In this document: positions 10,576-36,029 of the stretch, piece by piece
Position numbering within the stretch: the first letter of the stretch is position 1
Layout: each line of letters opens with the position of its first letter
From: Chitinophaga pinensis
GTDB taxonomy: Bacteria > Bacteroidota > Bacteroidia > UKL13-3
Reading direction: 5' to 3'
DNA length: 36,029 bases
NCBI GenBank assembly: GCA_945898275.1
Contig: CAMDHZ010000028.1
Span: 1 to 36,029 of the forward strand
Translations under genes and position numbers: made by a program
Notes under the pieces: model-generated
The model's input: only the letters and a program-made list of their open reading frames with translations
The model's database searches: none
Told to the model about the DNA's origin: nothing

Positions 10576-11473
10576 ATTAGTCGTTTTATGGTTTGTGCTC
10601 TTTGTAGCACAACAATTACCTGCACAAGAGCTAAGTTGCAAAGTTAGAATCAATGATGTTCAGGTTCAAATTTCTGATAAAAGTATATTTCGAAGTTTAG
10701 AACAACGCTTAACTGAGTTTGTAAATAACACTAAATGGACAACTGAAACTTTTTCCAACCAAGAAAAAATTGACTTAAATATTGAAATTATCCTAGGTGG
10801 ATATGATCAAAACACTTATGAATACAAGGCTTCTGCAATTATTCAAAGCAGGAGACCTGTATTTGGTAGTAGTTACAATACCACCTTGTTTTCATTCAAT
10901 GATGATAATTTCGACTTTAAATACCAAGACCAGGATAGAATGGATTATCAGGAAGGGGTGTTTACCAATGATGTAGTTTCTTATCTATCATTTTATGTGA
11001 ATTTTGTGTTGGGGATGGACTTCGATTCCTTTGGGCAAGAAGGAGGAACTATATTTTTTAATAGAGCTTTTCAAATTGCGAACATTGCACAACAAACAAG
11101 TGTTAAAGCAGGTTGGAAGCCATTTGAACGAACTTTAAGGACAAGATATAACCTTATAGATAATATGCTAAATCCTCGTTTTGCACCCATGAGACAGGCT
11201 ATTTATTTGTATCATCGTAAAGGTTTAGACCAAATGGTAAAAGACCCATTTGCTGCCAGAAAGCAAATAATGCTTTCTTTAACGGAGGTTAAAAAAGTAT
11301 TCAAGATTGCGCCAAATACTGTTGGATTGCTTATTTTCTTTGAAGCCAAAAGTGATGAATTAGTTAGTATTTATAAAGGTGCTGATGATATTGAAAAACC
11401 CAAAGCTGTTGAAATTCTAAGTGAAATCAACGTAAGTAACCTAAACAAATACGAAAAAATACGAGGTGGCTAG
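10568..11473 (+). CDS. porD: DUF4835 / PorD-type protein linked to type IX secretion
   Basis: This 301-aa protein has a signal peptide (MPKLVVLWFVLFVAQQLPAQE). It matches the DUF4835 family, which current annotation often names PorD, a periplasmic protein linked to the type IX secretion system of Bacteroidota. Characteristic segments are QELSCKVRINDVQVQISDKS near the mature start, SRRPVFGSSYNTTLFSFNDD, and FVLGMDFDSFGQEGGTIFF. The gene overlaps coaBC by 8 bases, the usual arrangement in this phylum. It meets the PorE-like gene tail to tail with interlocked stop codons. Family membership is fairly certain; the secretion role comes from the literature name and is less so. Confidence 0.8.
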   Translation: MPKLVVLWFVLFVAQQLPAQELSCKVRINDVQVQISDKSIFRSLEQRLTEFVNNTKWTTETFSNQEKIDLNIEIILGGYDQNTYEYKASAIIQSRRPVFGSSYNTTLFSFNDDNFDFKYQDQDRMDYQEGVFTNDVVSYLSFYVNFVLGMDFDSFGQEGGTIFFNRAFQIANIAQQTSVKAGWKPFERTLRTRYNLIDNMLNPRFAPMRQAIYLYHRKGLDQMVKDPFAARKQIMLSLTEVKKVFKIAPNTVGLLIFFEAKSDELVSIYKGADDIEKPKAVEILSEINVSNLNKYEKIRGG

Positions 11474-13368
11474 TTTGTTGATATCAACTTGATCTCTGTT
11501 CTTCTATTTTGAGCTTTTCCTTCAGCCGTTTGATTATCTGCTAATGGTTGGGTTGCAGCATATCCTTTAGAAGTTAAGCGATCTGCCTTAATGCCATTTG
11601 CTACTAAATAACTTAAAACGGCTTTTGCTCTATTGGTTGATAAGGTTGTATTTTTGCTAGCATCGCCTGAATTATCAGTATGTCCGCCAATTTCAATCTT
11701 TACAGTTGGGTTAATTGTTAAAAACTGTATTAACTTTTTCAACTCAACTTTAGATTCTTCTTTTAACTCAAATTTATCTACATCAAAAAAGATGTTTTTC
11801 AATACAATTTTGGCTCCATCCGTTAATGGTTGTAATGGAACATCCAATTGCAATGGTTTTAAGGCAGATTCTGTTTTTATCTCGAAGTTCTCTGAATAAA
11901 ATAAATATCCTTTTTGGTCTACATTTAAGGCATAATTCTTATTAGCTTGTAAACAAACTAGGAATTCTCCAGAAGTTTTATTGCTAAATGCTTCTACGAC
12001 AACTTTGCCAGTGGCTAAGTCTATCAATTCTATTTTTGCTGTAATTTTTTTACGTGTTGCTGCATCATAAACTATTCCTTTGACGTATGCCGTTTTCTGA
12101 GGTCTAGCCTTATCATATAGTTCAAATTTATAAATGTCTAATCCTCCTTTGGAGTCAATACCATCTCTTGCAATGTAAGCATCTATTCCATTTGAAGCGA
12201 TTACCAAGCAGGTTTCATCCTTCATGCTATTTATTGGATAACCTAAGTTTTCTGGTTTGATCCAACGCCCGCTCACTTTCCTCGAAATATATAAGTCAAC
12301 TCCTCCCATGCCTGGATGGCCATTGCTATTGAAATAAAGCGTTTGATCATCTTTAGCAATATGTGGTGATTGCTCATCTCCACTAGTATTAACATCTGGC
12401 CCCATATTAATTGGAGGTGTCCATCGTCCTTCTTTATAGGTAGTGTACCAAATATCACTTTTGCCATATCCTCCTGGTCGGTTGCTACTAAAATATAGTG
12501 TTTTACCATCGAAACTTAGGCTAGGTTGACTTTCCCAAGCAATTGTGTTAATTGGTGGACCAAGGTTTATGGGTTCAGCCCAAGTGTTACCATCTAATCT
12601 AGATAAGTAAATATCGCAACTGCCATAAGCACCTTCGCGATTACAAGCAGTATAAAAAATGTATTGACCATCTGCTGATAAAGAAATGGTACCTTCATTG
12701 CCATCTGTGTTAATAGGGAAACCCATATTGGCCGCAAATGAATACTTATCTCCTTGTTTTTTACTAATGTAGAAATCTTCATTTCTGCCATTAATGAGCC
12801 TAGTGAAGATTAAGGTTTGGTCATCTGCTGGAATCCCAGGAAAATATTCATTATCTGGGGAGTTTATCATGTTTCCTAGGTTAATAGGATTAAATGGAAC
12901 TGGAGTTTTTATTGCATTTCTTCCAAACTCAGCATTTTGTTTAATTTTATTGATAATGTCTTTTTTACCGTAATAATCTGGGTAGGTCAGAAATTTTTCT
13001 GCGGCTGCTAAGCTTGCTTCATAATTTCCATTCGCATAATAAACTTTGGAAATTCCATAGTAGCTCATAGGAAAATCTGGGTTAATACCTTTTATCTTCT
13101 CGTAAATCGCGATGGCTTCAGGATAATTTTCATCCATGGATTTCATTTCTGCTTTCAACATCCAAGCGTCAATAAAATTTGGGTCTAACACAACTGCTTT
13201 GTCTATCCATTGAGAGGCTCTTTGGAAGTCTTGCGTTTGAAATGTCTTTAAGGCTTCACCAAAATAGTAATCAGCTTTTTTATCCTTTGTACCACTAAAT
13301 GGTAATTCTTGACCAAAGCCAAGCGTTGAAATTAAGCAAATTAGAAGTAATAATATTGTTCTTATCAT
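11470..13368 (-). CDS. PorE-like OmpA-family protein (TPR, beta-propeller, CRD, OmpA)
   Basis: This 632-aa exported protein has a signal peptide (MIRTILLLLICLISTLGFGQ). TPR repeats lie at about 25-140 (AVVLDPNFIDAWMLKAEM). Five WD40-like/PD40 blades follow at about 175-415 (IPADDQTLIFTR, LSADGQYIFYT, LSFDGKTLYFSSNRPGGYG, IAKDDQTLYFNSNGHPGMGG, and an IASNG...DGIDSKGGLDIY blade). A carboxypeptidase-regulatory-like domain lies at about 428-500. The C-terminus is an OmpA peptidoglycan-binding domain (about 515-630; IGGHTDNSGDASKNTTLSTN, then NRRTEI). This is the order described for PorE of the type IX secretion system. Unlike PorE of Porphyromonas gingivalis, no lipobox Cys is seen, so it may be a soluble periplasmic paralogue. 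It lies tail to tail with porD. Confidence 0.82.
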   Translation of the reverse strand: MIRTILLLLICLISTLGFGQELPFSGTKDKKADYYFGEALKTFQTQDFQRASQWIDKAVVLDPNFIDAWMLKAEMKSMDENYPEAIAIYEKIKGINPDFPMSYYGISKVYYANGNYEASLAAAEKFLTYPDYYGKKDIINKIKQNAEFGRNAIKTPVPFNPINLGNMINSPDNEYFPGIPADDQTLIFTRLINGRNEDFYISKKQGDKYSFAANMGFPINTDGNEGTISLSADGQYIFYTACNREGAYGSCDIYLSRLDGNTWAEPINLGPPINTIAWESQPSLSFDGKTLYFSSNRPGGYGKSDIWYTTYKEGRWTPPINMGPDVNTSGDEQSPHIAKDDQTLYFNSNGHPGMGGVDLYISRKVSGRWIKPENLGYPINSMKDETCLVIASNGIDAYIARDGIDSKGGLDIYKFELYDKARPQKTAYVKGIVYDAATRKKITAKIELIDLATGKVVVEAFSNKTSGEFLVCLQANKNYALNVDQKGYLFYSENFEIKTESALKPLQLDVPLQPLTDGAKIVLKNIFFDVDKFELKEESKVELKKLIQFLTINPTVKIEIGGHTDNSGDASKNTTLSTNRAKAVLSYLVANGIKADRLTSKGYAATQPLADNQTAEGKAQNRRTEIKLISTN

Positions 13369-27112: not shown

Positions 27113-27186
27113 GGTGTGGTAGTTCAGCTGGTTAGAATACCTGCCTGTCACGCAGGGGGTCGCGGGTTCGAGTCCCGTCCGCACCG
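27113..27186 (+). tRNA. tRNA-Asp (anticodon GUC)
   Basis: The cloverleaf can be drawn by eye. The acceptor arm GGTGTGG pairs with CCGCACC (one G-U), followed by discriminator G. The D loop reads AGCTGGTTAGA. The anticodon stem CCTGC/GCAGG holds GTC at 27147-27149. The T arm CGGG/CCCG encloses the TTCGAGT loop. CCA is not encoded. It has its own promoter and is followed by a terminator. Its 3' half is the likely attachment site of the island that begins here. Confidence 0.97.
27160..27186 (+). other. Presumed left attachment site (3' end of tRNA-Asp)
   Basis: Tyrosine integrases of this kind commonly recombine at the T arm and acceptor 3' end of a tRNA gene. Here an integrase gene reading away from the tRNA starts 145 bases after its 3' end. 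The T-arm/acceptor segment is thus the natural candidate for att. No second copy lies in the window, so the boundary is inferred and not demonstrated. Confidence 0.35.
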
Positions 27187-27210
27187 CAAGAAAAATTTAG
27201 AAAAATTTTA

Positions 27211-27315: not shown

Positions 27316-27330
27316 TTGTTTCCCCCACGA

Positions 27331-28506
27331 ATGAAAAAGAACATTTCTACTAAGTTTTATCTAAACACCGAAAAAGGCAATGGCCCTAAATATCCATTGT
27401 ACCTTAGGTTTACCATAGACAGAGCCAGTACAAAACGCTCTCTTGGCTTTTCACTTACACCCAAAGAATGGAATGCAGAAAAGGAAGAATCCAAACTATT
27501 ACCGGTAAATCAAAAGATAAATGCCATAAAGTCAAAATTACTGGAAATTCAATACGAGCTTCAAAAGAATGATAAAGAGATTGATTCCAAGGAATTGGCC
27601 GACTTGGTATTTGGTACAAAAACATTAGAAGTCTATTTGGTTAAGTTTTTTGAGGAGTTTGCCACCCATGCCTTGGATACAAAGAAAATTAACAAAGGCA
27701 CATACCAGCAATATTTAACCTGCTTAACAGCACTAAAAGGATTTATACTATCTAATACTAAAAAAACTGATATAGATATTTCTGTGCCAGATTTGAGCTT
27801 TGTTGAAGCCTTCGATGCTTATTTGCATCAAAAGGATATTGGACTAAACACTATAGGCAACAAGTACCATAAAAAGCTTAAGACAGTTTTTCATTCGGCC
27901 CATCTTAAGGGCTTAATCAAAATCAATCCATACGCACTTTTTAAAATTCGGTTTGAACCAACCCACCGTCAATACCTCACTGAACAAGAACTTAAAAAGA
28001 TTAGGCAAGCAGATTTGCAAGAAAATGTGAGCTTGGAGAAGGTGAGGGATATGTTTTTGTTTTCTTGCTACACTGGTTTGCGGTTTAGTGATGCCATGGA
28101 TTTAGAGATTGGCCAGATTAATTTTAATGATGGCAATTATTCAATCTATAGACCTCAAAATAAAACAGGCGAAACCCTTTCTATACCGCTTATTCCTGAG
28201 GCTGTTGAAATTATAGAAGCTTATGATGGTACTGAAAGACTCATTACAAAAAAGGTGTTTCCAAAAATTAGTAACCAAAAATTCAATGTTTACCTAAAGG
28301 CAATTGCCAATTTGGCTAATATCCAGAAGGAGCTAACTCACCACATAGCCAGACATACTTGTGCTACCACTTTGCTCAATAGAGGGGTTAATTTAGATAT
28401 AGTATCAAAGTTTCTTGGGCATACCAGCACAAAACCCACTCGAATCTATGCTAAGATGCAAGATGAAACCATGAAGAAGGAGATTTATAAAGCGTTTAAA
28501 ATTTAA
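27331..28506 (+). CDS. Tyrosine recombinase/integrase of the island
   Basis: This site-specific recombinase, 391 aa from the ATG at 27331, presumably integrates the island at tRNA-Asp. The N-terminal arm-binding domain covers about 1-85 (KNISTKFYLNTEKGNGPKYP, YLRFTIDRASTKRSLGFSLT). A SAM-like core-binding domain lies at about 100-205. The catalytic domain has Arg251 in CYTGLRFSDA, Lys278 near RPQNKTGE, His338 and Arg341 in HHIARHTCATTLLNRG, His364 in FLGHTS and nucleophile Tyr373 in TRIYAKM, so the active site looks intact. The longer frame starting at TTG 27316 adds only five residues. It carries the last GGTTTGAACC copy (27950). The next gene follows after 10 bases. Confidence 0.93.
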   Translation: MKKNISTKFYLNTEKGNGPKYPLYLRFTIDRASTKRSLGFSLTPKEWNAEKEESKLLPVNQKINAIKSKLLEIQYELQKNDKEIDSKELADLVFGTKTLEVYLVKFFEEFATHALDTKKINKGTYQQYLTCLTALKGFILSNTKKTDIDISVPDLSFVEAFDAYLHQKDIGLNTIGNKYHKKLKTVFHSAHLKGLIKINPYALFKIRFEPTHRQYLTEQELKKIRQADLQENVSLEKVRDMFLFSCYTGLRFSDAMDLEIGQINFNDGNYSIYRPQNKTGETLSIPLIPEAVEIIEAYDGTERLITKKVFPKISNQKFNVYLKAIANLANIQKELTHHIARHTCATTLLNRGVNLDIVSKFLGHTSTKPTRIYAKMQDETMKKEIYKAFKI

Positions 28507-29620: not shown

Positions 29621-29932
29621 ATGAAAGATTTTGGTTCAAATCAAAAAAACAGTGCAGGGTATTTAATAGTACCTCATGAAATCTTGGAGTCAATCGAGAA
29701 AAATCAGATTGAAATTTTAAATCTTCTAAAAGGGAAGGGGAAACCTGAAACAGAAGCCTTAAACTATGTAGATGAAAAAAAGGCCATTGAACTGGTAGGA
29801 AAAAAGGCTACTTGGTTCTGGCAAATGCGCAAAGCAGGCCTTCTCAATTATACCAAGGTAGGTGCTAAAGTGTACTATTCACTTGATGAAATAAGGAATT
29901 TATTGTCAAACGGTATCAAACCCCAGAAGTAG
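29621..29932 (+). CDS. Excisionase-type helix-turn-helix protein
   Basis: This small DNA-binding protein has 103 aa. The C-terminal half (about 48-97, YVDEKKAIELVGKKATWFWQ, then KAGLLNYTKVGAKVYYSLDEI) matches the MerR-like HTH_17/excisionase fold common in Bacteroidota integrative elements. The N-terminal half (LIVPHEILESIEKNQIEILN) is a predicted helix or coiled coil. Such proteins act as excisionases or as repressors of element genes. It precedes a small gene by 3 bases and the RepA-like ATPase after that, a typical order for these elements. The inverted repeat at 29531-29572 is a candidate binding site. Confidence 0.8.
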   Translation: MKDFGSNQKNSAGYLIVPHEILESIEKNQIEILNLLKGKGKPETEALNYVDEKKAIELVGKKATWFWQMRKAGLLNYTKVGAKVYYSLDEIRNLLSNGIKPQK

Positions 29933-29935
29933 GCT

Positions 29936-30286
29936 ATGGTTATTAATAAAGCTTTTAATGACCCTATAATCGAAGGGTGTCAAATGTTAGATGAGTATTT
30001 AAATAATAAAATTAAAAATCTAACATATTATGCTAGACGCAATAATGCCAGTGATTTCCATATTAATAATATTAATTCAGAAATTAAAGTCCTTACGGAT
30101 GTCTTGAACAAAATACAACCCCTTGAAAAGCAAGATTTATGGCGTGGTATTGACTATTCAGTGATTAGGGCTTACGATAGGGATAAATCTCTTTGCGGTT
30201 TTAGGATTGAGGTAATAGAAAAGCCATTTAATAATAAGTTTTCATTTCTTAGATTAGACCTTAGCCAAGCCAATGAAAACTTTTAA
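29936..30286 (+). CDS. Small island protein of unknown function, 116 aa
   Basis: No family is recognised. The protein is soluble-looking and mainly helical in its first half (EGCQMLDEYLNNKIKNLTYY), then has a beta-like stretch (SLCGFRIEVIEKPFNNKFSF). Its start is 3 bases after the HTH gene stop and its end overlaps the ATPase gene by 14 bases, so the three are one translation-coupled unit. A role in element replication or regulation would fit this position, but nothing in the sequence proves it. Confidence 0.65.
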   Translation: MVINKAFNDPIIEGCQMLDEYLNNKIKNLTYYARRNNASDFHINNINSEIKVLTDVLNKIQPLEKQDLWRGIDYSVIRAYDRDKSLCGFRIEVIEKPFNNKFSFLRLDLSQANENF

Positions 30287-31304
30287 GCCAATCACAAAAG
30301 AAAACGCCCATAATTATCAAATAGAGCCTAATAACCTAGAGGCAAAACCTGAGTTCTTTATCATTCAGAGTGCCAATGCCTGTATAGATGAAGCTAAACT
30401 GTTAGGTAGGCCCAAGCGTTTATTTTCAGAGTTTTGGCATGAAGGGGAGCTTTGTATCTTGTTTGCAGATACCAATGTGGGTAAGTCTATTCTTGGGGTG
30501 CAAATTGCTGATGCCATAAGCAGAGGATATAGTTACCCAGGATTTATAACAGAATCTAGCCCTCAAGTTGTGCTTTTATTTGATTTTGAATTAAGTAATA
30601 AGCAGTTTGAAAAGCGGTATTCTAATGATTTTACAAATCATTATGTGTTTCATCGAAACTTGATGCGGGCTTATATCAATCCTGATAATTTGAGTTTTGA
30701 AGATTTTGAAAAGCTGCTTTTGGATGAACTGGAAAAAGCCATAACCAAAACAGGAGCCAAAGTGATCATCATTGACAATATCACCTACTTGAAAACCCAA
30801 TCCACAGAAACGGCTAAGGAGGCATTGCCTTTAATGAAAACCCTAAAGCACATTAAATACAAATACGACCTTTCTATTCTTGCTTTGGCTCATACCCCTA
30901 AGAGAAATATGTGCAACCCCATTACCGTAAATGATTTAGCGGGAAGTAAACATTTAGCCAACTTTGTGGACAGCGTTTTTGCTATTGGTGTCAGCCAAAA
31001 AGACAAATCTATTCGGTATTTGAAGCAAATAAAAGCAAGGGCCACCGAGAAAATTTATGACCACGATAATGTGGTGGTGTGTGAAATATGTAATCCCTTA
31101 AATTTTTTAGGTTTTATTTTTTTAGAGTTTAGCAAAGAATATGACCATTTAAAGCAGCCAAACCAAAAGGAGTCGGATGAACTAGAATCTGCAATATTGG
31201 CCATGAAAATGGGGGATAACAGGCTTTCCTTAAGAGAAATTGCCAATGCCCTAGATACAAATCCCATGAAAGTTAAGCGGGTTTTGGGTAGAAATGGATT
31301 TTGA
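30273..31304 (+). CDS. RepA-like RecA-fold ATPase with C-terminal HTH
   Basis: This 343-aa P-loop ATPase of the RecA/DnaB-like fold resembles the RepA helicase/AAA proteins of Bacteroidota plasmids and integrative elements. Walker A is ADTNVGKS (65-72, Ala in the first position, allowed by the A/G-x4-GKS/T rule). Asp104 lies in LLFDFE. Walker B is VIIIDN (164-169). LALAHTPKR (203-211) resembles the sensor/Q-loop region. The last 26 residues (LSLREIANALDTNPMKVKRV) form a helix-turn-helix. A likely role is loading or driving replication of the excised element. An iteron-like palindromic cluster lies 18-68 bases after the stop codon. Confidence 0.8.
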   Translation: MKTFKPITKENAHNYQIEPNNLEAKPEFFIIQSANACIDEAKLLGRPKRLFSEFWHEGELCILFADTNVGKSILGVQIADAISRGYSYPGFITESSPQVVLLFDFELSNKQFEKRYSNDFTNHYVFHRNLMRAYINPDNLSFEDFEKLLLDELEKAITKTGAKVIIIDNITYLKTQSTETAKEALPLMKTLKHIKYKYDLSILALAHTPKRNMCNPITVNDLAGSKHLANFVDSVFAIGVSQKDKSIRYLKQIKARATEKIYDHDNVVVCEICNPLNFLGFIFLEFSKEYDHLKQPNQKESDELESAILAMKMGDNRLSLREIANALDTNPMKVKRVLGRNGF

Positions 31305-31453: not shown

Positions 31454-31675
31454 ATGGAAGAAATATTTATTGATAACAAAAAAAGCTATTTATTAGCTAA
31501 CAGCCCTTTTCTTGAAATCCCTGAATTAGTTGAAAAAAGGCGTTGCCTTCATTGTGACGAAGTTTTTAAAATTGAAGACTATAAAGTTTTCAAAGACATT
31601 GCAGGTGATGAATTTATTTGTTGTCCAAATGCACCTGATTGTGACGGTACTATAATCGATTGGGTTAGGGAATGA
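31454..31675 (+). CDS. Small cysteine-rich, probably zinc-binding protein
   Basis: This 73-aa protein has five cysteines: Cys31 and Cys34 (CLHC), Cys56 and Cys57 (ICCPNAP) and Cys63 (PDCDG). The spacing suggests a zinc ribbon formed by CxxC and CC/x5/C. The remainder is acidic with no membrane segment. It is a single gene flanked on both sides by repeat clusters. It may be a transcription- or DNA-associated accessory factor of the island, but I know no named family. Confidence 0.6.
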   Translation: MEEIFIDNKKSYLLANSPFLEIPELVEKRRCLHCDEVFKIEDYKVFKDIAGDEFICCPNAPDCDGTIIDWVRE

Positions 31676-31699
31676 ATTGTTCTCTGTTTCGTTTTTAAA

Positions 31700-31743
31700 C
31701 TGTAACAGTGTAACACTTGTAACAGCTGTTAATGTTGTTACAG
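31700..31743. repeat. Cluster of TGTAACA repeats
   Basis: TGTAACA occurs at 31701-31707, 31709-31715 and 31718-31724, and inverted (TGTTACA) at 31736-31742. CTGTAACAG at 31700-31708 is itself a palindrome around one base. Four copies within 44 bases in a 263-base non-coding gap look like a repressor or replication-protein binding array. The rest of the gap (31744-31938) is very AT-rich and shows no clear gene. Confidence 0.6.
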
Positions 31744-31938
31744 TTCATTTTTAGCGAAGTTTAATTATTTTAAACTATTAATTGTGAGTTAAATATACTT
31801 TTTTGAGATGTTTATAGGTTGTTATGAAAAATGAAATTTGTTTTGATTTAGAAATGAATTTCATGTATTTTTTGATAAACCTAGTTGCAAAGAATTAAAT
31901 GTGTATTTTTTTTCTCATTTTTTATTGCAAAAAGTAAA

Positions 31939-32781
31939 ATGACTAAAATGAAAAAAACAAAGGTTTTTAATAGGAATCAATTAGAAGAAATCATTAAAAA
32001 GTTGGGTGAGTATCCCTTAACTAAATCTGGACATGGTTTCCGCGAAGGTATAAGGGAAAGTATTTTTGAATCAGCCACAAAATCAATTAAAAATTATACG
32101 GATTTATCCAAAAAAAAGCCTGCCCTAGGACTAATTTCTGTGGTATTAGCTGCAAATAGAAATTATAATAGGGTTGTTGAACCTAATTTAATTAATATTG
32201 AACGTGATTGTCCTAAATTATCTTTTTTCTCAGAGCTAAAAGAAATGATAAATAAAATAGGTGATGAAAAGTTTTATGAGCTTTGGGGACATAAGGATAA
32301 GAAGAAATTAGATACATTAAAAGAGATATTAGATATTATCTTTAAATTAAAGGAAAAAGATACGAACCTTTCTGACTTTGAAGTAATGAATAAATGGGCT
32401 AATAAGGCAAATTTCGAAGAAGACCCAATTTCAAAGATTAAAAACGTTGGTTTGGCAACATTTCAGCATTTAAGGATGGTTTTTGGTGCAAATACAATTA
32501 AACCAGATTTGCGTGTAAAACAGGTTCTCGAGTTTGAATTTGGTATTAATGGATTAAATGACTTTGATGTAATAAAAAAGGTTGAGGAGTTTTCTCGAAT
32601 CCTTAATTTGGAAGTTTTATTTTTAGACCAAATTTTCGTAAAATACGGTTCAAGTTATTTCATAGGTAAAGAAATGAATTCTATTTTTAAAATTGCTAAG
32701 GTTCTTAAGTTAAGAAATGTCGAATTTGAAATAATTTCAGAGGCAACTGGGTTAAATCAATATCAAATAGAAAAATTATAA
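31939..32781 (+). CDS. HhH-GPD-like protein next to the type I RM genes
   Basis: This 280-aa protein (ATG at 31939; another ATG at 31948 is equally possible; the frame from TTG 31885 is unlikely) has features of the helix-hairpin-helix DNA glycosylase superfamily. The stretch IKNVGLATFQHLRMVFGANT (167-186) followed by IKPDLRVKQVL (187-197) resembles the HhH motif plus the catalytic-Asp segment (Asp190). The Lys of bifunctional endonuclease III types is absent, as is any FeS cysteine cluster. The C-terminal ISEATGLNQYQIEKL resembles a short helix-turn-helix. It ends 33 bases before hsdM. Function unknown; base recognition or damage repair is an inference. Confidence 0.55.
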   Translation: MTKMKKTKVFNRNQLEEIIKKLGEYPLTKSGHGFREGIRESIFESATKSIKNYTDLSKKKPALGLISVVLAANRNYNRVVEPNLINIERDCPKLSFFSELKEMINKIGDEKFYELWGHKDKKKLDTLKEILDIIFKLKEKDTNLSDFEVMNKWANKANFEEDPISKIKNVGLATFQHLRMVFGANTIKPDLRVKQVLEFEFGINGLNDFDVIKKVEEFSRILNLEVLFLDQIFVKYGSSYFIGKEMNSIFKIAKVLKLRNVEFEIISEATGLNQYQIEKL

Positions 32782-32814
32782 TTAAATTAATAATTACAGT
32801 TTACCAAAAAGTAA

Positions 32815-34602
32815 ATGAGCATAAATACCCAATCTTTACAACCCGTTATTAACTTCCTTTGGACAGTTGCGGATGATGTTTTGGTAAATACCTACCAAAA
32901 AGGAAAATACAAAGATGTTATCCTGCCAATGGTAGTTATTCGAAGACTGGACTTGCTTTTAGAACCAACGAAAGAACAGGTTTTAAAGACTTTCAACGAA
33001 TATAAAACCAAACTCCAAAACTTGGACAGCTTGCTGACTAACAATAAACACGGTTCGGGCTTAGCATTTTATAATACTTCAAAGTTTACTTTAAAAAAAT
33101 TGCTTGACGACCCGAAAAACCTAAGAAGCAATTTTGAAAACTATTTGAACGGTTTTTCGGAAAATGTGCAGGATATCATCAAACAATTCAAATTCAGAAA
33201 TGAAATTGAAACCTTGGACGAAGCAGAAATTCTGTTTTCACTCATTGAAAAGTTCTGTTCACCGAAAGTGGAATTGCATCCCGACAAGTTGCCACCGTTG
33301 GCAATGGGCTATGTGTATGAAGATTTGGTAAGAAGATTTAACGAAGAAAACAATGAAGAAGCAGGAGAACACTTTACGCCAAGGGAAATCATTGATTTAA
33401 TGACGCACCTTGTTTTTCTTCCTGTGAAAGACAAAATTAAGCAAGGAACTTATTTGATTTACGACCCTTGTGTGGGTAGCGGTGGAATGCTCACGATTGC
33501 CAAAAACTTTTTGCTCAATCCCGATGGTTTGATTAAAAGTAATGCCACCGTTCATCTATACGGACAGGAGAGCACGCCTTTCATTTATGCTACTTGCAAA
33601 AGTGATATGCTGATAAAAGGCGAAGATCCTGACAAAATCGCTTATGGCAGCACATTAAGTGCTTATGGATTTGATAAAGATTTGAAGTTTGACTTCATGC
33701 TTACCAATCCGCCTTATGGTAAAACTTGGGCTCCTGATAAGAAAGCTTTAGGAGTTGGACCAAAAGGAGCTATCACCGATAAACGCTTTATGCTGAAAGG
33801 TAGCTACAAAGAAGAAGCCGTTACCAGCCGTGTAAATGACGGACAGTTGATGTTTGTATTACACATGCTTAGTAAAATGAAAGATACCGAACTAGGAAGT
33901 CGAATTGCTTCGGTGCATAATGGTTCGGCTTTGTTTACAGGTGATGCAGGGCAAGGTGAAAGCGAAATTCGAAAACATATTATTGAAAACGATTTACTTG
34001 AAGCCATTGTAGCATTGCCTAATGATATGTTTTATAACACAGGCATCCCGACTTACATTTTCCTTTTCACCAACCGAAAAGCGATAAACCGAAAAGGCAA
34101 AGTACAAATGATAAATACAATTTCCGAAAACTTTTATAACAGAATGCGAAAGTCATTAGGTAAAAAAAGAGTGGAGTTTTTACCCGAACACATTGATTCA
34201 ATTGAAAAAACCTTTCTGAATTTTGAAGAAAACGAATACAGCAAAATATTTGACAATGACGATTTCGGTTATGCTCAAATAACCGTAAACAGACCTTTGA
34301 AAGACGAGAAAGGCAAAATTGTAACCGACAGCAAAGGCAAACCTAAGCCTGATCCACAACTAAAAGACACCGAAAACATTCCATTGAAAGAAGATATTCA
34401 GGATTTTTTTGAACGTGAAGTTTTGCCTTTTGCTTCTGATGCTTGGTGGGATAAGAAAGATACCAAAATTGGCTATGAAATAAACTTTGCCAAATACTTC
34501 TACAAACACCAACCGCCAAGAGCTTTGATGGAAATTGCCAAAGATATTTTTGCCATAGAGCAGGAAACAGACGGTTTACTAAAAGAGATTATTGAAGTAT
34601 GA
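32815..34602 (+). CDS. hsdM: Type I restriction-modification methyltransferase subunit
   Basis: HsdM methylates adenine at the recognition site set by HsdS. It has 595 aa. The HsdM N-terminal helical domain covers about 8-150 (LQPVINFLWTVADDVLVNTY, then VVIRRLDLLLEP). The catalytic domain begins at AGEHFTPREIIDLM (183-196). The S-adenosylmethionine motif DPCVGSGGML lies at 217-226 and the catalytic NPPY at 298-301, typical of N6-adenine enzymes. The codon and base make-up looks less AT-rich than the genes just upstream, suggesting separate acquisition of the RM cassette. It overlaps hsdS by 4 bases (ATGA). Unusually, no hsdR lies upstream. Confidence 0.95.
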   Translation: MSINTQSLQPVINFLWTVADDVLVNTYQKGKYKDVILPMVVIRRLDLLLEPTKEQVLKTFNEYKTKLQNLDSLLTNNKHGSGLAFYNTSKFTLKKLLDDPKNLRSNFENYLNGFSENVQDIIKQFKFRNEIETLDEAEILFSLIEKFCSPKVELHPDKLPPLAMGYVYEDLVRRFNEENNEEAGEHFTPREIIDLMTHLVFLPVKDKIKQGTYLIYDPCVGSGGMLTIAKNFLLNPDGLIKSNATVHLYGQESTPFIYATCKSDMLIKGEDPDKIAYGSTLSAYGFDKDLKFDFMLTNPPYGKTWAPDKKALGVGPKGAITDKRFMLKGSYKEEAVTSRVNDGQLMFVLHMLSKMKDTELGSRIASVHNGSALFTGDAGQGESEIRKHIIENDLLEAIVALPNDMFYNTGIPTYIFLFTNRKAINRKGKVQMINTISENFYNRMRKSLGKKRVEFLPEHIDSIEKTFLNFEENEYSKIFDNDDFGYAQITVNRPLKDEKGKIVTDSKGKPKPDPQLKDTENIPLKEDIQDFFEREVLPFASDAWWDKKDTKIGYEINFAKYFYKHQPPRALMEIAKDIFAIEQETDGLLKEIIEV

Positions 34603-35825
34603 TAGCAACAGCACTTTCATATAAAGGAACTGGATTTAATTGGATGCCTGTCATTCCTGAGAATTGGGAAACAAGAAGAGCTAAAGCTATATTTCAGGAA
34701 CGTTCAATAAAGGGGTTTCCTAATGAACCGCTTTTAGCGGCTTCACAAAAACAAGGTGTTGTTTTAAAAGAACTGCTTGAGCAACGAAGCATGGAGGCTG
34801 TTCAAAATTTTGAAAGTTTCAAACTTGTTGAGAAAGATGATTTTGTGATTAGCCTTCGTTCATTTGAAGGCGGGATTGAATTAGCGTATTACAGAGGTAT
34901 TATTAGTCCAGTCTATTCGATATTTTATTTCAGAGAAAATAAACATAACCGAGACTTCTTTAAATATCTGTTCAAGTCTAGGATGTTCATTCAAGAGTTG
35001 AATGTTTACAAGAAAGGAATTAGAGATGGGCAATCGATAAGTTATAGCGAGTTTGCAAATATTTATCTTCCAGTACCCGCCAAAGAGGAGCAAGACGGAA
35101 TTGTGCAATACATCAAAGCACAGGAAGAAAAGATAAACTTGTTTATACAAAAGAAGCTAAGGTTTATTGAGTTGTTGAAGGAGCAGAGGCAGAGTGTTAT
35201 CAATGATAAACTTCAATTAAACGCAAAAAAAATGCGATTGAAGTTTTGTGTTTCTAAGGTCGGAAGTGGTGTAACTCCAAGAGGAGGAGCAGAAGTCTAT
35301 CAAGATGAAGGGATAATATTTTTAAGAAGTCAGAATGTTCACAATGATGGATTAAGGCTTGATAATGTATCATACATATCTGAAGAAATAAACTCTGAAA
35401 TGAAAGGCTCAGAAGTTCATTTCAATGATGTATTGATAAATGTTACAGGTGCTTCAATTGGCAGATGCTTTGTTTTCAATATAGATGCACCTGCAAACGT
35501 TAATCAACATGTTTGCATATTGCGACCAATTCAAGAAACTATCAGTTCTGAATTTTTAATGCTTCAACTCCAATCTGAAAAAATTCAAACCATTATCAAC
35601 ATGGTTGAAGGAGCATCTCGTGAAGGATTGACAAATAAGGATATTAAAAACTTTCCATTGTTTGTACCACCACTTGAAGAACAAAAACAAATCGTATCAC
35701 ACATAAAAACAGAAACCGCCACCATAGACGCAGCCATATCCAAAGCCAAACGGGAAATTGAACTTATTCGGGAATACAAAGAGGCCATGATTGCAGAAGC
35801 GGTGATGGGGAAAAGAAGAATTTAA
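34599..35825 (+). CDS. hsdS: Type I restriction-modification specificity subunit
   Basis: HsdS chooses the DNA target of the type I complex. It has 408 aa with the classic two-half design. TRD1 covers about 1-160. A central coiled-coil conserved region covers about 161-205 (AKEEQDGIVQYIKAQEEKIN, then LLKEQRQSVINDKL). TRD2 covers about 212-355 (SKVGSGVTPRGGAEVYQDEG, LINVTGASIGRCFVF). A distal conserved region covers about 356-408 (PPLEEQKQIVSHIKTETATI, EAVMGKRRI). Both TRDs appear complete, so a bipartite target is expected. The start codon overlaps the hsdM stop (ATGA), giving translational coupling. Confidence 0.94.
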   Translation: MIATALSYKGTGFNWMPVIPENWETRRAKAIFQERSIKGFPNEPLLAASQKQGVVLKELLEQRSMEAVQNFESFKLVEKDDFVISLRSFEGGIELAYYRGIISPVYSIFYFRENKHNRDFFKYLFKSRMFIQELNVYKKGIRDGQSISYSEFANIYLPVPAKEEQDGIVQYIKAQEEKINLFIQKKLRFIELLKEQRQSVINDKLQLNAKKMRLKFCVSKVGSGVTPRGGAEVYQDEGIIFLRSQNVHNDGLRLDNVSYISEEINSEMKGSEVHFNDVLINVTGASIGRCFVFNIDAPANVNQHVCILRPIQETISSEFLMLQLQSEKIQTIINMVEGASREGLTNKDIKNFPLFVPPLEEQKQIVSHIKTETATIDAAISKAKREIELIREYKEAMIAEAVMGKRRI

Positions 35826-35836
35826 CTTTTTTGATT

Positions 35837-36029
35837 ATGGGAATAACTAGTTTAATAAGCAACATTGGTTCACAAATCTGGGCGATTACAGAAGTAATTC
35901 CAGCAATTGCATCATACCGTTTGGAAAAGAAAAAAGTTGAGAATGCAGCAGTTGCCTCAATGAGAAAAGCACTAAATAGAACTAGAATCTTTTTACGTGA
36001 TCCTGATTTCTCAAATACAGAAAAACTAA
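35837..36029 (+). CDS. Unknown gene after hsdS (3' partial)
   Basis: The frame opens with ATG 11 bases after the hsdS stop and runs 64 codons to the window edge without a stop. The visible part starts MGITSLISNIGSQIWAITEV, then has VIPAIASYRLEKKKVENAAV and an Arg-rich stretch with RDPDFSNTEKL. A possible weak hydrophobic segment lies at about 14-26, followed by basic residues. This is not the start of HsdR that I would expect. It may be an accessory or defence gene inserted within the RM operon; I recognise no family. Confidence 0.6.
   Translation, partial: MGITSLISNIGSQIWAITEVIPAIASYRLEKKKVENAAVASMRKALNRTRIFLRDPDFSNTEKL

Follow-up and report, generated by a model that had tools for sequence, protein, structure and literature searches.

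Mig.MthI is a T/G mismatch glycosylase of the helix-hairpin-helix (HhH)-GPD superfamily that is encoded beside a methyltransferase and belongs to an Fe-S cluster family. PabI has a half-pipe fold, and the uracil-DNA glycosylase (UDG) fold is alpha/beta. The OGG family of the PADLOC database (model PDLC00910) is linked to the cyclic-oligonucleotide-based anti-phage signalling system (CBASS), and no tested function of its proteins was found in the titles and abstract openings of the literature. According to the excerpts of PMC11078745 and PMC13160076, the glycosylases Brig1 and Brig3 act in defence by excising phage bases and are likened to uracil-DNA glycosylases. PabI-type restriction glycosylases, linked to a methyltransferase gene, are reviewed in PMC10273834 as far as its excerpts go. 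Here we describe a glycosylase-like gene on a 36,029-nucleotide stretch of Chitinophaga pinensis (GTDB lineage UKL13-3). This stretch, called the window below, is an entire contig (CAMDHZ010000028.1, C28) of a 3.52-Mb, 106-contig genome (G000). In our best explanation, to which we give a nearly even chance, the gene is independent cargo of a mobile element and encodes a small HhH-GPD glycosylase of monofunctional type, which belongs to an unnamed family that is sister to OGG and perhaps serves in defence.

Like Mig.MthI, the product resembles an HhH-GPD glycosylase and is encoded beside a methyltransferase; unlike that Fe-S cluster enzyme, it has one cysteine. The action proposed for it is that of Brig1 and Brig3, in which non-standard phage bases are excised to abasic sites. 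Those proteins, however, are UDG-like, whereas the present model is a helical HhH-GPD fold, all of whose strands, if any, are shorter than three residues. PabI is likewise linked to a methyltransferase gene, but it works with its own methyltransferase and its half-pipe fold is made of beta-strands; the present gene is not fixed to the neighbouring hsdM.

Predicted fold and active-site residues

The gene and the codons discussed below are as follows.

31939..32781, + strand: subject gene, an open reading frame (ORF) for an HhH-GPD-fold DNA-glycosylase-like protein of 280 amino acids (aa); AlphaFold2 predicted local distance difference test (pLDDT) 84.9, predicted template-modelling score (pTM) 0.76; VIA-align Z 13.3 to MagIII
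32155..32163, + strand: codons of N73-R74-N75, candidate residues filling the gap of a flipped base; invariant in the window, L004 and L011, not kept in L013 and L005
32437..32487, + strand: putative helix-hairpin-helix segment, residues 167–183, with Ala173 at the lyase-lysine position; aligned to the classic motif by eye
32506..32508, + strand: codon of D190, the putative GPD catalytic aspartate; Asp in the window, L004, L007, L011 and L013, Glu in L005

The ORF is intact, with an ATG at 31939 and a stop codon that ends at 32781; the longest frame starts with TTG at 31885 and gives 298 aa. A preliminary description of this DNA had placed a 280-aa ORF 33 bases before a type I methyltransferase gene. 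The ORF list, Pfam and PADLOC confirm the coordinates and the identity of hsdM, which starts at 32815 on the same strand. The protein is conserved, with 41–42% identity to a homologue in an Alteromonadaceae metagenome-assembled genome (MAG; L004) and 40–41% identity to a homologue on a phage contig. Searches of Pfam, NCBIfam, PADLOC and PHROGs gave no credible match, the few rows listed all having E-values of 0.05 or more. No Pfam model, HhH-GPD included, matched the protein at E ≤ 1, and therefore the fold assignment rests on structure prediction and profile comparison. In the PDB, the best sequence match of the protein was a Rho GTPase (E 1.1), and that of the family profile was a designed repeat protein (E 1.8).

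The AlphaFold2 model was built on a five-sequence family alignment (A4). In the Foldseek comparison of the model with the PDB, 8-oxoguanine glycosylases rank first with a probability of 1.00 (best E 4.3e-2). When VIA-align was applied to the Foldseek candidates, the top match was Helicobacter pylori MagIII (1pu7), with 196 residues aligned at 3.4 Å. MagIII is only 15% identical to our protein and differs from it in that the subject gene has a mobile context. The archaeal-type Ogg structures of M. jannaschii (Z 12.9) and T. maritima (Z 12.5) are tied with MagIII within 1. HhH-GPD DNA glycosylases make up all of the best 50 matches listed; the DUF2419 and UDG folds are not among these 50, which is no evidence either way. 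A second model, that of the distant family member L013 (26% identity), matched MagIII with Z 12.1 over 185 residues at 4.1 Å, and its best 50 matches listed comprise 45 HhH-GPD glycosylases and five DUF2419 queuosine enzymes. The two models have alignment members in common and are not fully independent. The preliminary description had guessed at an HhH-GPD fold and had named structure prediction as the check. The predicted structure has this fold, and the guess is further borne out by the kept catalytic aspartate, the lyase lysine being absent. These results support the assignment of the protein, at the level of a model, to the HhH-GPD DNA glycosylase fold.

Residues 167–183, IKNVGLATFQHLRMVFG, were placed by eye in register with the classic HhH-GPD motif. 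In this register, Ala173 occupies the position of the lyase lysine of bifunctional enzymes, and D190, the aspartate of IKPD, that of the GPD aspartate. The HhH and GPD assignments come from this sequence register and not from superposed coordinates. An HhH segment followed by the GPD aspartate is present in the protein, and the aspartate is kept in five of the six family loci. The protein's own signature is GxATFQHLR...TxKPDxRV. Glycosylases of the Mig, MutY and Nth kind carry a four-cysteine Fe-S loop. The only cysteine of our protein is C91, and thus it has no loop of that kind. The kept D190, the alanine in place of the lyase lysine and the lack of an Fe-S loop suggest a monofunctional glycosylase. 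The gap-filling role of N73-R74-N75 is presumed by analogy with the plug residues of OGG1 and endonuclease III.

The homologue with glutamate in place of the aspartate is that of a Lokiarchaeota MAG (L005). This exchange would fit a modified-base reader without catalysis, which would bind a flipped or altered base and recruit or trigger another protein. The structural matches of the model include the glycosylase homologue Mag2, whose structure was solved on abasic DNA, and this points the same way. The other five loci all retain the aspartate, however, and we consider a mere reader quite unlikely.

The candidate that the gene encodes a housekeeping glycosylase was rejected. The Pfam HhH-GPD search of the host genome found two other proteins only, which are Nth and MutY as named by eye, and the subject gene is therefore an addition to the housekeeping pair.

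Relation to the type I locus and to the element

Relatives of hsdM at E ≤ 1e-100 occur at 14 places in 11 of 98 related genomes, the window's own included. The HhH gene occurs in two of the 98, and the window's genome is the only one with both. The nearest hsdM relative is that of genome G046, which has 95–96% aa identity and lies in a locus of the order hsdM-hsdS-three genes-hsdR. In a local comparison, the DNA of G046 matches the window from 32805 onwards, ten bases ahead of hsdM. The subject gene is not in the 593 bases upstream of the G046 hsdM, which is all that the contig offers there, and a search of the G046 genome (84% complete) with the protein found nothing at E ≤ 0.001. In genome G072, where the integrase is 30% identical to that of the window and hsdM is 46–50% identical, the place before hsdM is taken by an AbiEi/AbiEii pair (AbiEii 6.6e-43; AbiEi 0.001, just below the cut-off). 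Because the gene is absent at the G046 hsdM and an AbiE pair is found in G072, we regard it as cargo beside a type I system.

The distance of 33 bases on the same strand would be expected for an integral type I component, for example a restriction glycosylase that replaces or aids HsdR, and the subject gene and hsdM may be co-transcribed in the window. Against such a component stands the G046 locus, in which a near-identical hsdM with its own hsdR is found without the subject gene beside hsdM, within the limits of the 593 bases and of the 84% complete genome. Moreover, hsdM was found among the neighbours examined at none of the five family loci outside the window, and the genome has HsdR-type matches on contigs other than the window. 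An integral component is thus most improbable in our estimate. As a fixed type I component the gene was rejected on its absence beside the 95–96% identical G046 hsdM, with only 593 upstream bases available. The preliminary description had tied the protein to the restriction system, and to judge from these loci this tie is probably wrong: a type I system that includes the protein was seen neither beside the G046 hsdM nor at the five other loci. Nearness to hsdM, tempting as it is, does not amount to membership of the restriction system.

No hsdR lies in the window, where the contig ends at 36029. Eight HSDR_N matches were found in the 3.5-Mb genome, on contigs C35, C42, C48, C52, C60, C66, C78 and C104, and none of these contigs could be joined to the hsdMS locus of the window. 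Several of the eight HsdR N-terminal matches are on short contigs, as for many type I systems or remnants. In G046, three genes lie between hsdS and hsdR (L057, 3670–6767 in reverse-complement coordinates), and the second is AAA-type ATPase-like by eye. No report of a type I system accompanied by an HhH-GPD protein was found in the literature, as covered by titles and abstract openings with subscription journals mostly outside.

The other features of the window are as follows.

27113..27187, + strand: tRNA-Asp(gtc), presumed attachment site of the element, directly before the integrase (ARAGORN)
27316..28506, + strand: tyrosine integrase of the element (Pfam Phage_integrase 1.4e-26, Phage_int_SAM_5, Arm-DNA-bind_5)
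29621..29932, + strand: small protein, perhaps helix-turn-helix and excisionase-like (Pfam HTH_17 E 0.011, below cut-off)
30273..31304, + strand: AAA_25 ATPase, DnaB/RepA-like, of the element (Pfam AAA_25 5e-19; PHROG DnaB-like helicase 7.4e-15)
31454..31675, + strand: 73-aa protein whose cysteines resemble those of a zinc ribbon (Pfam Zn_ribbon_bTOP1 E 0.0086, below cut-off)
31698..31745, no strand: cluster of TGTAACA repeats, three direct and one inverted, from a repeat search; candidate operator, iteron or terminator
32815..34602, + strand: hsdM, type I methyltransferase (Pfam N6_Mtase 1.5e-55, HsdM_N 9.9e-22; PADLOC MTase_I 4.6e-233)
34599..35825, + strand: hsdS, type I specificity subunit (Pfam Methylase_S 8.2e-22)
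35831..36028, + strand: first part of another ORF, truncated where the contig ends; its DNA matches only itself in the genome

The order of tRNA-Asp, integrase, AAA_25 gene and then cargo is, by its gene content, that of an integrative element that carries its cargo on the far side. The GC content is 28.5% in the subject gene, 31.8% in the element core and 37.1% in hsdM, which is a weak hint of separate origins. The gap of 263 bases between the zinc-ribbon-like gene and the subject gene contains the TGTAACA cluster, and positions 31717–31743 are terminator-like. The Bacteroidota-type promoter pattern gave three matches (2.67 expected), none of them before the subject gene, and 14 sigma-70 promoter patterns were observed with 16.1 expected. 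In four elements with a related AAA_25 gene, neither the subject gene nor hsdM occurs in the stretch compared (that of L072 ends at the contig end). The place before hsdM is therefore not shown as a general defence slot, and only G072, with its related integrase, supports such a slot.

The family and its kinship with OGG

Six independent core loci were found: the window, L004, L005, L007, L011/L012 and L013. L011 and L012 are counted as one lineage, and L014, L031 and L060 repeat L013 and L011. Broader relatives (L008, L018/L034, L015 and L016) are not among the six, and the weak or broken matches L019, L030 and L038 were left out of the counts. The protein or a profile was searched in about 1,260 genome entries with overlap, and one peptide-pattern contig scan was added. 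Among the 97 related genomes besides the window's own, the single-protein search found one relative, in G041, where the gene is split between two frames; it gave one weak match (G119, E 8.8e-4) in the rest of the 395-genome phylum sample. Profile A4 matched four of the 395 genomes of the class sample at E ≤ 0.01, the window's own included; in the class to which the Alteromonadaceae MAG belongs (369 genomes), it matched that MAG and gave one weak match. The peptide-pattern scan gave the Alteromonadaceae and Lokiarchaeota MAGs, and the viral contig search gave L011, L012 and L013. With tblastn, no homologue was found in phages, and three Arthrobacter/Paenarthrobacter records were found in plasmids at E 1e-3 to 2e-3 in one search and none in others. 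The viral scans otherwise gave no further loci, several having no match and others only loci already known. The family is rare.

At L005, two N6/N4 methyltransferase genes of the same strand immediately precede the homologue, with 21 bases between. On the viral contig L013, a methyltransferase gene (PADLOC 9.3e-109) is convergent with the homologue, and the ends overlap by 19 bases. An integrase lies upstream of the L004 homologue, with one small ORF between them that is GIY-YIG-like by eye and has no Pfam match at E ≤ 0.1; Drt3a (3.5e-107) and Drt3b (6.5e-221) are found 7–10 kb upstream, beyond the integrase. At L011/L012, the homologue stands alone among phage head and tail genes (by eye), and its GC content of 43% in contigs of 57–59% is as would be expected for a moron. 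A survey of neighbours had been proposed in the preliminary description. None of the five loci outside the window showed hsdM among the neighbours examined; two of the five adjoin another DNA methyltransferase, and at one a named defence system lies no more than 10 kb away. The wider idea of the preliminary description, a modification-dependent defence factor, may hold: family members are found close to DNA methyltransferases, close to an integrase that has DRT3 on its far side, and on viral contigs.

That the window, L005 and L013 all have a methyltransferase neighbour, together with the fold of a repair glycosylase, would suit a methylation-linked repair enzyme like Mig.MthI, which would remove damaged or deaminated bases at methylated sites. 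Type I enzymes make N6-methyladenine (m6A), however, which is not known as a mutation hotspot. The single cysteine leaves no Fe-S cluster of the Mig/MutY/Nth kind, the 95–96% identical hsdM of G046 does without the gene, and the neighbours scanned at L004, L007 and L011 include no methyltransferase (the L011 scan being without the upstream neighbour). Such a repair role seems unlikely.

The two viral-contig lineages bear on another explanation, a phage-side enzyme for counter-defence or base hypermodification. HhH-derived amino-acid:DNA transferases are a family to which such an enzyme would be related, and it would have been spread by mobile elements. A mycobacteriophage amino acid:DNA transferase does appear in the weak viral fold list of the model, at rank 14 (E 2.3). 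Against it, our protein has no Pfam match at E ≤ 1, and the ORFs of at least 150 aa of phage M6 (39 kb), among which the transferase ORF was not pinpointed, reach at most 18.4 in hhalign. This explanation is very unlikely.

The OGG family was sought in the phylum sample and found in eight of 395 genomes; six of the eight places were aligned, L038 and L039 being left out. In hhalign, the five-member family profile matched the six OGG sequences with a score of 52.1 (Prob 91.8) over window residues 162–242. As controls, 200 column shuffles gave scores of 23.0 or less, the reversed alignment gave 11.4, and 19 other window ORFs reached 23.2 at most. The host glycosylases, named by eye, gave 17 (Nth), 13 (MutY) and 17.5 (alignment of both). 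A subset of the window, L004 and L011 scored 38.8 against OGG. In the wider group, the QueC-linked protein of G119 scored 58.5 and the Arthrobacter plasmid protein (L015) 52.8. These profile scores support common descent of the two families, which would be sisters. The PADLOC model PDLC00910 itself gave no match to the subject protein at E ≤ 1 and none to L005 and L013 at E ≤ 0.1, and it matched L011 at 0.014, L008 at 4.1e-5 and L018 at 6.1e-71.

The OGG proteins are likewise small and single-domain, with a KPD motif and without the lyase lysine. They differ in that one member adjoins a cyclase and a 2TM effector; no cyclase is among the window neighbours scanned with PADLOC. At the locus of that member (L018/L034, genome G411), which was first picked up as a weak match of the family profile, the cyclase (2.5e-69), the 2TM effector (9e-27) and OGG (6.1e-71) stand in a row according to PADLOC. 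The locus resembles CBASS, with OGG as an accessory protein, and L033 is similar by eye. A distant relative was seen on actinobacterial conjugative plasmids (L015, 9578–10240; L016, 5578–6240), annotated as heme peroxidase in L015 and as hypothetical in L016. Its neighbours in L016 are a convergent GIY-YIG nuclease gene and, directly upstream, a gene of the zeta-toxin family.

At L008 (9675–12307), an OGG-like gene adjoins a QueC gene (Pfam 3.9e-34) and a gene with a nucleoside 2-deoxyribosyltransferase domain. QueC-like ORFs also precede OGG in L032, L036 and L037 (by eye). The OGG-like gene and its QueC neighbours possibly form a deazaguanine-related module. Deazaguanylation reportedly occurs in type IV CBASS (PMC11996544). 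QueC proteins with PfkB-deoxyribosyltransferase partners are described in PMC13329287, and the words OGG and glycosylase are absent from that paper and from PMC13279940, a paper on QueC. A protein with weak similarity to DpdA (NCBIfam E 0.0082, 15 bits, cut-off 200) is encoded two genes from the L005 homologue, at 11430–12704.

These neighbours raise the alternative of a 7-deazaguanine glycosidase like DUF2419/Qng1, which would act on a deazapurine base in DNA or on a deazapurine nucleotide and work with deazaguanine enzymes in some hosts. The substrate of DUF2419/Qng1 is a nucleotide. In favour are the QueC gene adjoining the related G119 protein (Pfam QueC 3.9e-34), the QueC-like ORFs of L032, L036 and L037, the DpdA-like neighbour, far below its cut-off, and the five DUF2419 structures among the best 50 matches of the L013 model (Z 7.9–8.4, root-mean-square deviation about 6 Å). 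On the other side, no deazaguanine gene is present among the nine window ORFs scanned. DUF2419 is a larger protein, and its absence from the best 50 matches for the window model proves nothing. We hold this alternative to be improbable.

Base excision as a possible defence

Under our best explanation, that of independent cargo with a glycosylase of monofunctional type, the gene would belong to an element at tRNA-Asp and be flanked on one side by the element's core genes and on the other by a distinct type I system. The protein would bind duplex DNA via the hairpin and flip out a non-standard base, either a hypermodified base of a phage or one made by a modification enzyme. A water molecule activated by D190 would then hydrolyse the N-glycosidic bond, and the resulting abasic site would block replication of the invader. 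Without the lyase lysine, the protein would not nick the strand itself. We infer the catalysis, the substrate and the protective role. Because of the precedent of Brig1 and Brig3, base excision as defence is possible in principle. In the excerpts of PMC13092281, a glycosylase is named once, in a figure legend on predicted systems.

Several points weigh against this explanation. The known independent loci number just six, of which two are on viral contigs, and the context counts are small and raw. At L004, the integrase separates the homologue from DRT3, and the two may belong to different islands. The L007 gene is split in two frames, and the four L007 neighbours scanned give only PDC-S01 candidate models, about 3–4 kb away. 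The L005 homologue carries glutamate where the catalytic aspartate is expected, and a phage-borne copy could also be explained by counter-defence or repair. In the comparison with OGG, the window sequence alone scored 22.3 and L005 with L013 scored 22.2, both at background; the OGG link therefore needs the pooled family profile. The Foldseek E-values of the model are weak, and mostly helical models can by chance reach Z near 13–14 according to VIA-align's own caution. That one superfamily occupies the entire best-50 list of the model speaks against chance similarity.

A wider reading, possible but doubtful in our judgement, is that anti-phage DNA glycosylases have a second fold class in this family, with an action like that of Brig1 and Brig3 but of separate origin, carried on integrative elements, phages and archaea and partly beside methyltransferases. 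The substrate of this class may be a deazapurine or a hypermodified base. If this is true, the proteins would add an HhH-GPD class to the uracil-glycosylase-like Brig1 and Brig3, and they would offer a handle on the function of the PADLOC-listed OGG proteins. Base-excision immunity would then have arisen more than once.

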